Positions 25,233-28,840 of a DNA stretch of 33,080 bases are shown here, piece after piece (positions within the stretch are counted from its first letter, which is position 1; each line of letters opens with the position of its first letter). The stretch is from a virus. The translations under genes were made by a program, and so were the position numbers. The stretch covers positions 1 through 33,080 of IMG/VR virus record IMGVR_UViG_3300036852_000081. The stretch is one strand, 5' to 3'. The notes under the pieces were generated by a model. That model was not told where the DNA came from, did not search any database, and worked only from the letters and a program-made list of their open reading frames with translations.

Positions 25233-26296
25233 GCGTGGGCCTTCGGGCGTGGCACCAGACCTGCGAGTTCTATGACGACGGGCAGCGGATCATGCCGGAC
25301 GACGGCGTTGGGCTGGCGGGCCGGGAGGGAGGAGTGGAACCGATGACCGAATGGCGACACGCTCCGGTGCCATCCCCGAGCCGCGATGACGAGCGATGGG
25401 TCTGGTGCGTCCGATGCAAGGCGTCATGGCCCTGCGACGCCGAACAGCAACGTCTCCGAGCCGAAGCCGCGCAGCGTGCCCTCGATGACGTGAGGGCGAA
25501 GGTGGAGAAGCTGCGCGTGTTGGTCGGGCCGCTCGACCCGGACTGCGCGAAGGCGCGGGCCGTAACGCTCGATGCGGTGCTCGCGCTCTTGGACCTCGCC
25601 CTCCCCAGCGAACCAGTGAGCACCCCGAAGCCGCCGGAACTGCGATGGCCCGACATGAGCGCCTCCTATCCCGGCAATGCCCCCAGCGAACCAGTGAGCA
25701 CGGACGGGGGGCCACGGATCGACGTGGCACGCCTGACCGAAGCGATGGGCGTCATGCTCGTCACGGAGGACGGCGAACTCGTGGAGTCATTGGGCGAGTC
25801 AGCCGCCCGCATCGCCGCCGAATACGACCGGCTCGCATCACAGACACCCAGCGAACCAGTGAGCACGGACGGGGAGACGGAGCACGTCGCCGGTTGGCCC
25901 TGGCATCGGGAGACGGTGGGGCACGCCGACATCTGGGAGATTGCCGCGAAGATCGCTGGCTCTCTCGCCATCCCGCTGGCCGAGGGCTTGCCGCCGAACA
26001 CGGACGCGACATGGATCGTGAACGCCGATAACCGGATCGTCGCATTCACCGGCAACGGACCCCGGCAAACCGACAACGCCGAGCTCATCATCGAAGCGGT
26101 CTCCCGCCTCCCCCTCCCTGACGGATTACCAAGCACCGAGCCGCGGGAACAGCAGATCGAGCGGATCGCGGCGGTGTTGGCAGATCACGGGATCGTCCAG
26201 CACGATAACGAAGTCCAGTACAGCCTAGACCTGCCGCTTGCCGCAGCCCTCTACGACGCCGGCCTCCGAGCAAGCACCGAGCCGCCGCGCCCGTGA
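25229..26296 (+). CDS. hypothetical protein with three PSEPVST repeats
   Basis: A 355-residue product from GTG 25229 (GTGA); ATG 25343 has an equally strong GGAGG-rich site and would give a 317-residue form. Parts: a CVRCKASWPC zinc-like knuckle near 60-69, a helical stretch with DDVRAKVEKLRVLVGPLD, and then three linkers ending in PSEPVST that separate short helical modules (DVARLTEAMGVMLVTEDGEL; HADIWEIAAKIAGSLAIPLA; REQQIERIAAVLADHGIVQH). It looks like a chain of small domains assembled by in-frame repeat recombination. Function unknown. Confidence 0.6.
   Translation: MSVGLRAWHQTCEFYDDGQRIMPDDGVGLAGREGGVEPMTEWRHAPVPSPSRDDERWVWCVRCKASWPCDAEQQRLRAEAAQRALDDVRAKVEKLRVLVGPLDPDCAKARAVTLDAVLALLDLALPSEPVSTPKPPELRWPDMSASYPGNAPSEPVSTDGGPRIDVARLTEAMGVMLVTEDGELVESLGESAARIAAEYDRLASQTPSEPVSTDGETEHVAGWPWHRETVGHADIWEIAAKIAGSLAIPLAEGLPPNTDATWIVNADNRIVAFTGNGPRQTDNAELIIEAVSRLPLPDGLPSTEPREQQIERIAAVLADHGIVQHDNEVQYSLDLPLAAALYDAGLRASTEPPRP
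25603..25874 (+). repeat. three in-frame copies of a 21-28 bp repeat
   Basis: CCCAGCGAACCAGTGAGCAC occurs at 25604-25623, 25682-25701 and 25847-25866. The second and third copies extend with CGGACGGGG. All are in the same frame and encode PSEPVST(DG). Spacings (78 and 165 nt) are multiples of three. Confidence 0.9.
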
Positions 26297-26646
26297 CCGG
26301 ATATCTCACGCTCCTCGAAGTCGCCGAGCTCCTGCGCGTGTCAACGGGCACCGTCCGCAACCTCGCCCGCCGCGCCGGCCTCCCCCTGATCCGCGTCTCC
26401 CCCCGGCGCTATCTTGTCTCCGAGGAGGGCCTTGCCGAATGGCTGGACGGGCGCGTCGTGAGTGGGGTTCCGGCTCGTGCTACCAGACCAAGCGAGGGTA
26501 CTGGCGAGTCAGCGTCCCGCTTCCCTCGGATGGCGGACGACGACGCCAGGAGTGGCAGTACCGGACGGAGGCGGCCGCCCGTCGCCAGCTCGAAGCGGTC
26601 CAACGTCGTCTCGCTCGCGGCCTCCCGGTCGACGAAGGCCGGATGA
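26293..26646 (+). CDS. Xis-like MerR-type HTH protein overlapping the integrase
   Basis: From GTG 26293 (GTGA overlap with the previous gene). Residues 1-55 are a complete excisionase-type HTH: YLTLLEVAELLRVSTGTVRN, then LPLIRVSPRRYLVSEEGLAE. The frame stays open to 26646 (117 residues), overlapping the integrase by 208 nt, but residues after about 58 look like out-of-frame sequence. It should bind attP and direct excision versus integration. Whether the natural product is this HTH alone, a tail-extended form, or a frameshifted fusion to the integrase cannot be settled here. Confidence 0.7.
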   Translation: MTGYLTLLEVAELLRVSTGTVRNLARRAGLPLIRVSPRRYLVSEEGLAEWLDGRVVSGVPARATRPSEGTGESASRFPRMADDDARSGSTGRRRPPVASSKRSNVVSLAASRSTKAG

Positions 26647-27461
26647 CCGTGGCCGAGTACGCCGTCGAATGGCTCGCGCAGCTCCAGGTGAAGCCGTCCA
26701 CCAAGGCGATGTACGGCTCCATCGTCCGGCACCAGCTCGGCCACCTCGCGGACATGCGCCTGACCCGCGTCGCCGGCCCCGACATCCGGGCGATCCTGCA
26801 TGAGCGGGAGCGGGAGGGCTATTCCGGCCGGACCCGCCGCGCCGTCCTCGATGTCCTGCGGATGATCTTCCGCATGGCCGAGCACGACGGCATCGTGGAG
26901 CGCAACCCCGCCGCGACCGTCACGGCTCCCCGCATCGACGCCAAGGAGCCGGTGCATCTCACCGCCGAACAGGCCAGGAGGTTCCTCGATGCCGCCAAAG
27001 GTGACGCGCTCTACAGCCTCTACGCGGTTGCTCTGGGAACTGGTCTGCGACGGGGTGAACTGTTGGCCCTCACATGGCGAGACGTTGCTGATGACTACGG
27101 CCATGTTGTGGTTCGAAGGGGAAAAACCGCCGCCGCTGCCCGAACTGTCCCCGTCCCACGGTTCGCTTCGCTGGCGCTTCGCGGGCTACCACGAGCCCCC
27201 GGCCCCATCTGGCCCTACTCCCCCAGCTACGTCACCCGACACGTCGGCGTGATCTGCAAACGGGCCGGCGTGCCCCGGATCACCTTCCACGGGTTGAGGC
27301 ACTCAGCGGCCAGCATCCTCCTGGCGGAAGGCGTCGATCCCCTCACCATCCGGGGCATCCTGGGCCACGTCTCGGTTTCCACCACGGCCCACTACGCCCG
27401 GTCGGAGGAGGCCGGTCGGCGTGAGGCTTTGGAGCGGCTTGGAAAGGCGGTCAGCGCGTGA
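26439..27461 (+). CDS. int: tyrosine integrase
   Basis: A 340-residue site-specific recombinase from ATG 26439. An N-terminal arm-binding region (GSGSCYQTKRGYWRVSVPLP) and a core-binding SAM-like domain (MTVAEYAVEWLAQLQVKPST) precede the catalytic domain. The active site is complete: Arg204 in TGLRRGELLALTWRDV, His284-x-x-Arg287 in HGLRHSAAS, His310 in ILGHVSVSTTAHYAR and the nucleophile Tyr319. It inserts the phage into the host tRNA-Val gene and, with the Xis-like protein, excises it. The attP lies 178 bp downstream. Confidence 0.93.
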   Translation: MAGRARREWGSGSCYQTKRGYWRVSVPLPSDGGRRRQEWQYRTEAAARRQLEAVQRRLARGLPVDEGRMTVAEYAVEWLAQLQVKPSTKAMYGSIVRHQLGHLADMRLTRVAGPDIRAILHEREREGYSGRTRRAVLDVLRMIFRMAEHDGIVERNPAATVTAPRIDAKEPVHLTAEQARRFLDAAKGDALYSLYAVALGTGLRRGELLALTWRDVADDYGHVVVRRGKTAAAARTVPVPRFASLALRGLPRAPGPIWPYSPSYVTRHVGVICKRAGVPRITFHGLRHSAASILLAEGVDPLTIRGILGHVSVSTTAHYARSEEAGRREALERLGKAVSA

Positions 27462-27638: not shown

Positions 27639-27688
27639 TGGTGGGCGACACTGGGCTCGAACCAGTGACCTCTTGCATGTCAAGCAAA
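27639..27688 (-). other. attP: attP core: 3' half of a tRNA-Val(GAC)
   Basis: Read on the minus strand, 27688 to 27639 gives an anticodon stem-loop TTTGC-TTGACAT-GCAAG (anticodon GAC), a 5-nt variable loop AGGTC, a T arm ACTGG-TTCGAGC-CCAGT, acceptor strand GTCGCCC, discriminator A and CCA. The 5' half does not form the matching acceptor strand or a proper D arm, so it is not a complete tRNA. This is the usual att core of phages that integrate in tRNA 3' ends; insertion would restore the host tRNA-Val. Confidence 0.88.
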
Positions 27689-27755: not shown

Positions 27756-27777
27756 CGGCTGGACATCGGCTGGACGT
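27756..27777. repeat. right-arm 11-bp tandem repeat, candidate integrase arm sites
   Basis: CGGCTGGACAT (27756-27766) is followed directly by CGGCTGGACGT (27767-27777). The GGCTGGA core is the same as in the left-arm pair at 27557-27578, so like repeats flank the att core on both sides. The end overlaps the start of the methyltransferase gene. Confidence 0.55.
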
Positions 27778-28840
27778 GCATGACGTGCCGACGTTCGGAT
27801 CGCTGTTCGCGGGCATCGGCGGGATCGACCTCGGCCTCGAGCGGGCCGGCTGGACCTGTCGATGGCAGGTCGAATGGGACGCCTACTGCCAGCGAGTCCT
27901 CGCCAAGCACTGGCCCGATGTTCCCCGATACGGCGATATCACCGCCGTCGATTGGACCGGAGTCGAGCGGGTCGACCTTCTGGCCGGAGGCTTCCCTTGC
28001 CAGCCAGTCAGTTCAGCTGGCAAGAAGGCCGCCCAAGCGGACGCGCGGTGGCTCTGGCCGGAGTTCGCAAGAGCCATTGGCGCTCTTCGACCCCGATACG
28101 TCCTCGTGGAGAACGTCCCAAACCTCCTGGGCGTCAACGTCGGGTCAGCCTTCGGCGACATTCTCGGAGACCTGGCCACGCTCGGGTACGACGCGGAATG
28201 GGATTGCATTCCCGCGTCGGCCGTTGGTGCCGTTCACGACAGAGATCGAGTCTGGCTCGTGGCCTACCCCGGACGCCGCGGTGTTCAACCTGACAGCCGA
28301 CCCGGAGCGGCACCGCGAGCGACAGGCCCGACTCAAAGCGGCGCATGGCAACGGCAACGGCGCCGGGACGCCCCTGGCAATGGCCGTGCGAATGCCGGAG
28401 CGATGGCCCACGCCAACGGTGACGGACAGTCACGGCCACGGCTATACGCGCGATCGCGGCGACCCGACAAAGGAACGCCTGACGCTCTCGGGTCTGGCGC
28501 GGCTCTGGCCGACGCCGACGGTCGACGACGCAAATCAGGGAGCCGGTGGGCGAGCGTCGGGCGAGTTCCGGTCCTTGACGCGCTCCGTGATCCACGGAGT
28601 GGCGGGCTCGCTGTGGGCGACCCCGACAGCGCATCCGCGGACGCACTCGCCGCGGGCGGTGGACCACGGCGAGCAACTAGCCAACCAGGTCGGTGGCTCT
28701 CTGAACCCGACGTGGGTCGAGTGGCTCATGGGGTTCCCGCTCGGGTGGACCGACTTAGGGCCCTCGGAAACGCGGTCGTCCCGCAGGTCGTCGAAGTGAT
28801 CGGCCGCCAGCTCCTCGCCGCCCTCGAGAACGCCGCATGA
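27776..28840 (+). CDS. C5-cytosine DNA methyltransferase with a two-frame C-terminal half
   Basis: A 354-residue frame from GTG 27776 (GTG 27785 also possible; no clear ribosome site). Conserved motifs: I FAGIGGIDLGLE, IV GGFPCQPVS with the catalytic Cys, VI ENVPNLL, VIII HDRDRVWLVAYP, and X LRALGNAVVPQVVEVIG. It would protect phage DNA from host restriction. Between about 28265 and 28755 the +1 frame is also open, has higher GC at third codon positions, and encodes WPTP repeats and LNPTWVEWLMGFPLGWTDL, which I recall from phage cytosine methyltransferases. The target-recognition region may therefore be translated in the other frame. The displayed frame is the one that keeps motifs I through X in one product. 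Confidence 0.8.
   Translation: MHDVPTFGSLFAGIGGIDLGLERAGWTCRWQVEWDAYCQRVLAKHWPDVPRYGDITAVDWTGVERVDLLAGGFPCQPVSSAGKKAAQADARWLWPEFARAIGALRPRYVLVENVPNLLGVNVGSAFGDILGDLATLGYDAEWDCIPASAVGAVHDRDRVWLVAYPGRRGVQPDSRPGAAPRATGPTQSGAWQRQRRRDAPGNGRANAGAMAHANGDGQSRPRLYARSRRPDKGTPDALGSGAALADADGRRRKSGSRWASVGRVPVLDALRDPRSGGLAVGDPDSASADALAAGGGPRRATSQPGRWLSEPDVGRVAHGVPARVDRLRALGNAVVPQVVEVIGRQLLAALENAA

Follow-up and report, generated by a model that had tools for sequence, protein, structure and literature searches.

The sequence analysed here, called the window, is a 33,080-base phage contig from IMG/VR (IMGVR_UViG_3300036852_000081, positions 1 to 33,080). It contains the gene of a C5 cytosine methyltransferase (C5-MTase), alpha, which starts with a GTG codon and has an alternative GTG at 27785, and within the same DNA a second long reading frame in the +1 register, the product of which is called beta (Table 1). 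The first-pass annotation described the +1 frame as open from about 28265 to 28755; open it is, but the range was too short, as the frame runs from 27669 to a stop codon at 28797-28799 and comprises 376 codons. Besides the ATG of the longest version of beta, ATG 27918 and TTG 28077 are further +1 starts in the window. The WPTP repeats described for the +1 frame are present (at about 28259, 28403 and 28505, with a WATP at about 28616) and are followed by a motif-IX-like segment of the form LNPxWVEWLMGFPxGWTDL. The core of beta at the protein level spans about 28079-28780, and overprinting thus begins further upstream than the position 28265 originally proposed. At 27639-27685 the minus strand carries the 3' half of a tRNA, with an anticodon loop (TTGACAT), the T-arm (GGTTCGAGCCC) and an acceptor end with CCA; ARAGORN detected no complete tRNA there. 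This half tRNA adjoins a tyrosine integrase (26238-27461) and is probably the core of an attP site through which the phage integrates at a tRNA gene.

Table 1. Coding features of the overlapping alpha and beta frames in the window.
Feature	Position	Strand	Remarks
Alpha ORF, frame 0	27776..28840	+	C5-MTase catalytic subunit, 354 aa; PF00145, TIGR00675, phrog_363
Beta ORF, +1 frame, longest version	27780..28799	+	ATG start, 339 aa; phrog_1008, stop depletion, synonymous constraint
Beta core, N-terminal part, overprinted (LFDPDTSSWRTSQ...FSETWPRSGTTRNG...)	28079..28262	+	On top of alpha motifs VI-VIII; fourfold-site conservation
Beta WPTP-repeat region, presumed target-recognition region	28263..28690	+	Alpha frame is a predicted disordered linker here
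Beta motif IX-like segment GGSLNPTWVEWLMGFPLGWTDL	28691..28762	+	Alpha frame reads RWLSEPDVGRVAHGVPARVDRLRA here; fourfold-site obs/exp 2.7-3.7
Alpha motif X (LGNAVVPQVVEVIGRQLL)	28763..28837	+	Frame 0 only; fourfold-site obs/exp 1.07-1.47; pLDDT 93-98

The assignment of motifs I-VIII and X to frame 0 was borne out by profile searches. Residues 7-164 of alpha match PF00145 with an E value of 2.6e-45, and the chain also matches TIGR00675 (E 4.8e-38) and phrog_363 (E 5.7e-79). The catalytic PCQ and ENV residues (P69, C70, E107 and N108 in the A5 reference) are invariant or conserved at over 90%, and motif X (LGNAVVPQ) is conserved in the alpha chain, with constraint in frame 0 only. In an AlphaFold model built with 88 homologues, pLDDT is 93-98 for motif X and for most of residues 1-165, which hold motifs I-VIII (one block at 84), and below 50 at residues 176-259, 265-299 and 308-317, that is for almost all of 176-317. 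The folded parts superimpose on the large domain of the HhaI MTase, the closest solved relative, with a Z score of 27.4 and an rmsd of 2.3 over 201-202 aligned residues. A folded small domain, made up of recognition domain and motif IX, is predicted by this model to be absent from the alpha chain. A canonical motif IX, seen in many control Dcm genes, is absent from frame 0 of the dual genes.

What does the +1 frame encode? The profile search placed beta in a phage family of its own, phrog_1008 (E 8.2e-28, residues 41-327), and nothing significant was matched in Pfam, NCBIfam, PADLOC or the PDB. Both phrog_363 and phrog_1008, of which the two frames of the window are members by profile, are labelled DNA methyltransferase; they are listed as separate proteins, and the labels are silent on a nested pair or on subunit roles. 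The AlphaFold model of beta is poor (mean pLDDT 60.6, pTM 0.30), and a fold search with this low-confidence model, which returned no PDB match, says little. Towards the C-terminus WPTP repeat modules, variable in number (mostly 1 to 5), precede the motif-IX-like segment, and the protein covers exactly the recognition-domain and motif-IX part that alpha is missing. A conserved segment further upstream, SSWRTSQ...TWPRSGM, has no counterpart in ordinary MTases.

The +1 frame was also described as having the higher third-position GC typical of this genome, which is correct for 28265-28755 (0.829 versus 0.595 in frame 0; 0.87-0.93 in the structural genes of the phage). A GC-rich gene may keep a second frame open by chance, and two compensating sequencing errors or indels in the contig might mimic the same picture. 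Taken alone, the +1 openness of the window is unremarkable, because 40 of 200 synonymous shuffles of this 68% GC gene equal it in a single-gene test that has low power in GC-rich members including the window. Homologues are more informative. Searches with either frame gathered 160 viral loci, and a profile of the +1 protein added further viral loci and 80 contigs of bacteria belonging to many phyla. As the frame-0 (Dcm-frame) search made no use of the +1 frame, the loci it returned are unbiased for +1 openness. In all 295 of 295 loci both proteins overlap in the same +1 register, and 65 unique loci were found through frame 0 alone. In the AT-rich loci L119 and L131 (41-43% GC) the +1 frame is open for ~300 codons and the +2 frame contains ~40 stops. 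Canonical Dcm genes, taken both from these bacterial genomes and from others, contain 6-34 +1 stops, and many of them have a canonical motif IX (e.g. LTPRECARLQGFPDDF) in frame 0. Judged by this comparison of sequences, which includes members of 41-47% GC, the +1 openness is far beyond chance.

Selection on the two frames was assessed in a codon alignment of 234 genes, with a null model in which each gene keeps its frame-0 protein and its own codon usage; the 234 related sequences are not independent, and an internal control is provided by the flanking parts of each gene. Within 28025-28762 only 25 +1 stops are observed versus 879±25 expected, a 35-fold depletion, whereas the N-terminal stretch 27791-27971 contains 382 versus 417 expected and thus no depletion, and +1 stops return at motif X. 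Homologues with one frame full of stops, named at the outset as evidence against overprinting, are not what the alignment contains, as 215 of the 234 genes are free of +1 stops in 28025-28762 (19 expected). The other 19 have at least one, some of them possibly at the edges of the stretch. In one locus, L109, a single stop falls within the WPTP region of beta and the motif-IX part is intact, which may represent loss, error or a split beta.

Conservation at the fourfold-degenerate sites of frame 0, measured as agreement relative to the expectation from base composition, follows the same outline. The ratio of observed to expected is 1.1-1.3 over most of motifs I-IV and 1.43 at 27971-28006. In 28079-28262 it is mostly 1.5-2.9, as compared with 1.1-1.3 upstream, and reaches 2.0-2.9 over the +1 segments SSWRTSQ and TWPRSGMTRNG. 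The WPTP repeats give about 2.5 and GGxLNPxWVEWLMGFP gives 3.4-3.7, and from motif X on the ratio does not exceed 1.47. Conservation at these sites tracks the +1 protein and not the frame-0 motifs. Codon position 3 is the most variable in motifs I-VIII and X; only in beta segments, namely 28691-28762 and the WPTP repeats, does it vary less than position 1. Between the window and its closest relative (L082; comparison WIN-L082) the recognition region differs at 61, 36 and 36 sites of frame-0 positions 1, 2 and 3, respectively, and therefore it is the third position of the +1 frame that varies most. In 28691-28762 the variability of frame-0 position 1 is also low (0.32-0.37), which means that both frames are constrained there. 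The comparison of substitution patterns that the first-pass annotation had suggested thus came out in favour of two constrained frames, with the third position of the +1 frame the most variable in the recognition region. Chance openness owing to high GC was rejected on the grounds of the AT-rich homologues and the codon-usage null, and compensating indels were rejected because all homologues share the two-frame layout. With the same layout in 295 loci, the depletion of stops and the synonymous constraint, the probability that either accident explains the locus is negligible, the ordinary result of the shuffling test notwithstanding.

How is the +1 frame translated? The genes share no single conserved beta start, but in 230 of the 234 an open start codon precedes the core. 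In this zone the +1 ATGs are enriched for preceding SD-like sequences (odds ratio 3.5, z 10.1) in a test stratified by alignment position and GC. No SD enrichment was found in the same zone for +2 ATG, frame-0 ATG, +1 GTG/TTG, ACG or ATH codons (values 0.1-1.2), nor for ATGs within the beta core. SD enrichment also holds for +2 ATGs close to where alpha ends (odds ratio 3.0), as it should if these ATGs start the genes that follow. Because the enrichment is confined to +1 ATGs upstream of the core, internal initiation is likely to be the rule in the family and, as far as sequence signals can tell, is favoured over frameshifting. The alternative, also raised by the first-pass annotation, is that a programmed +1 frameshift joins the N-terminus of alpha to the beta region and that one long chain is made, either in place of the two subunits or in addition to them. 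At the junction both frames are open, and the starts of the window itself (ATG 27780, ATG 27918 and TTG 28077) have no clear SD sequence, so that for this one phage a frameshift is still conceivable. A frameshift signal or conserved slippery site was not found, however, and fourfold-site conservation is at baseline in 28007-28060. Moreover, motif X is encoded in frame 0 only and would be lost after one shift, and the +1 ATGs show SD enrichment across the family. Altogether, frameshifting is a very improbable explanation. Dual coding, selection on both frames and start signals for the +1 frame across the family are direct observations of this analysis, and true overprinting, one of the possibilities considered at the outset, is what the locus exhibits.

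A relation of beta to the methyltransferase is suggested by sister genes. Its C-terminus matches the canonical motif IX of ordinary C5-MTases weakly and not significantly when taken alone. In three genes of one actinobacterial genome (Lentzea; L314, L316 and L317), WPTP-type repeats lie in the +1 frame and a segment of the type LNPAFVEWMQG...GWV lies in frame 0 directly before motif X, and the profile of the beta motif IX matches this frame-0 segment with E values of 0.001-0.03 (Z 1000). This profile match identifies the C-terminus of beta, by sequence comparison, as the apparent counterpart of motif IX within the dual-gene lineage. A tree built on the catalytic part unites the dual-frame genes with these three in a single clade (100/98), separate from canonical Dcm; the three represent a different division of the same enzyme between the frames. 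Divergent Peduoviridae-like phage loci (L338-L343, L365), with FAGIG...GSCPCQPF in alpha, have WPTP repeats and LNPxxxxWLMGxP in the +1 frame.

It could be imagined that beta is a genuine overprinted protein with a function of its own, perhaps in regulation or anti-restriction, and not a subunit. That neither Pfam nor the solved structures offer a match for it and that it contains the conserved SSWRTSQ...TWPRSGM segment foreign to ordinary MTases would fit such an idea. Yet the +1 protein and its profile, searched against phages, plasmids, viral contigs and genomes of bacteria, gave no stand-alone beta, and in none of the 295 loci does beta occur apart from alpha. Furthermore, beta sits exactly at the place of recognition domain and motif IX, alpha has no predicted folded small domain, and the beta C-terminus matches motif IX in frame 0 of the sister genes. 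An independent function is therefore unlikely. Instead, as beta covers the missing part of alpha and carries the apparent motif IX of the lineage, alpha would be the large and beta the small domain of one enzyme, and it is quite probable that the nested gene pair encodes a heterodimeric C5-MTase with a catalytic alpha and a recognition subunit beta.

Division of a C5-MTase into two chains has precedents. The BsuMI-type enzyme (YdiO/YdiP) is a natural two-chain division with the break after motif VIII. Lee, Kam and Shaw are said to have described in 1995 that the small EcoHK31I subunit is encoded within the gene of the large one, in a different frame, and the phage locus has just such a small-chain ORF nested in another frame of the large-chain gene. 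In C5-MTases generally, motifs I-VIII and X constitute the large domain, and the recognition region and motif IX the small domain (PMC3404938). M.EcoHK31I consists of two polypeptides, of which the larger contains motifs I-VIII and X and the smaller alone supplies motif IX, with the recognition domain predicted to reside in the large subunit (PMC3404938). In M.AquI the split falls in the variable region, ahead of motif IX, and the small subunit contains part of the variable region, motif IX and motif X (PMC3404938). The phage enzyme resembles M.EcoHK31I (YGGCCR) in an alpha chain with motifs I-VIII and X and without motif IX, a comparison made at the level of motif layout. It differs in that EcoHK31I belongs to a restriction-modification system whereas the genes here are of phages and prophages, and in that the corresponding alpha segment looks disordered in the model and the WPTP-repeat region is in beta. 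With M.AquI and the BsuMI-type enzyme it shares the break after motif VIII, but unlike in M.AquI motif X stays in alpha and both frames share the same DNA. By analogy, the locus most likely works like M.EcoHK31I with its motif IX-bearing smaller subunit. Another second protein in a phage methylase gene is the out-of-frame HNH endonuclease (ShiLan domain) of mycobacteriophage methylase genes (PMC11855218). This endonuclease is a mobile insertion of patchy distribution, whereas the beta frame belongs to the methylase gene itself and is conserved.

The arrangement is widespread in phages and prophages and usually half-annotated. The family extends over hundreds of phage contigs and over bacterial contigs titled with more than ten phyla, down to 41% GC. 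In Paenibacillus phage Bloom both frames are annotated (BLOOM_56/57), and the record of Mycobacterium phage Babsiella contains a short nested ORF. For two E. coli prophage loci (L366, L367) RefSeq annotates the alpha frame only, and one copy is in two incomplete pieces. A search of plasmids with a made-up 60-base consensus of motif-IX codons returned nothing useful. Literature searches for an overprinted phage methyltransferase retrieved no description of the family as an overprinted pair. A comparison of P. larvae phages lists cytosine-methyltransferase genes and penalises annotation overlaps, and the passages retrieved from it do not discuss the pair (PMC6070908).

How could the two products work together? 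Frame 0 would yield the catalytic large domain with the SAM site, the PCQ cysteine and motifs I-VIII and X, held together by a flexible linker. Translation of the +1 frame would as a rule begin within the alpha gene and supply the WPTP repeats and the motif-IX-like helix as small DNA-recognition domain. Both chains would be translated from the same mRNA and then bind each other, beta taking the place of the in-frame recognition domain of an ordinary enzyme. Physical association of alpha and beta and target recognition by the WPTP region are proposed here, and for the phage the enzyme may serve in anti-restriction or self-modification. More speculatively, beta could be a new kind of recognition domain in which the WPTP modules set the specificity, with catalysis and recognition split over two frames neither of which is free to change alone, a tentative idea that we consider possible but less likely than not.

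To our knowledge, it is seldom that two genes overlap over a long distance on the same strand with good support for selection on them, and such pairs are mostly restricted to a single group of viruses. Should beta be the recognition subunit, the annotated ORF alone would not allow many annotated cytosine methyltransferases of phages to be expressed or tested correctly, and synonymous recoding of such genes would destroy the second subunit. The family offers a natural system for studying mutual constraint between two reading frames.
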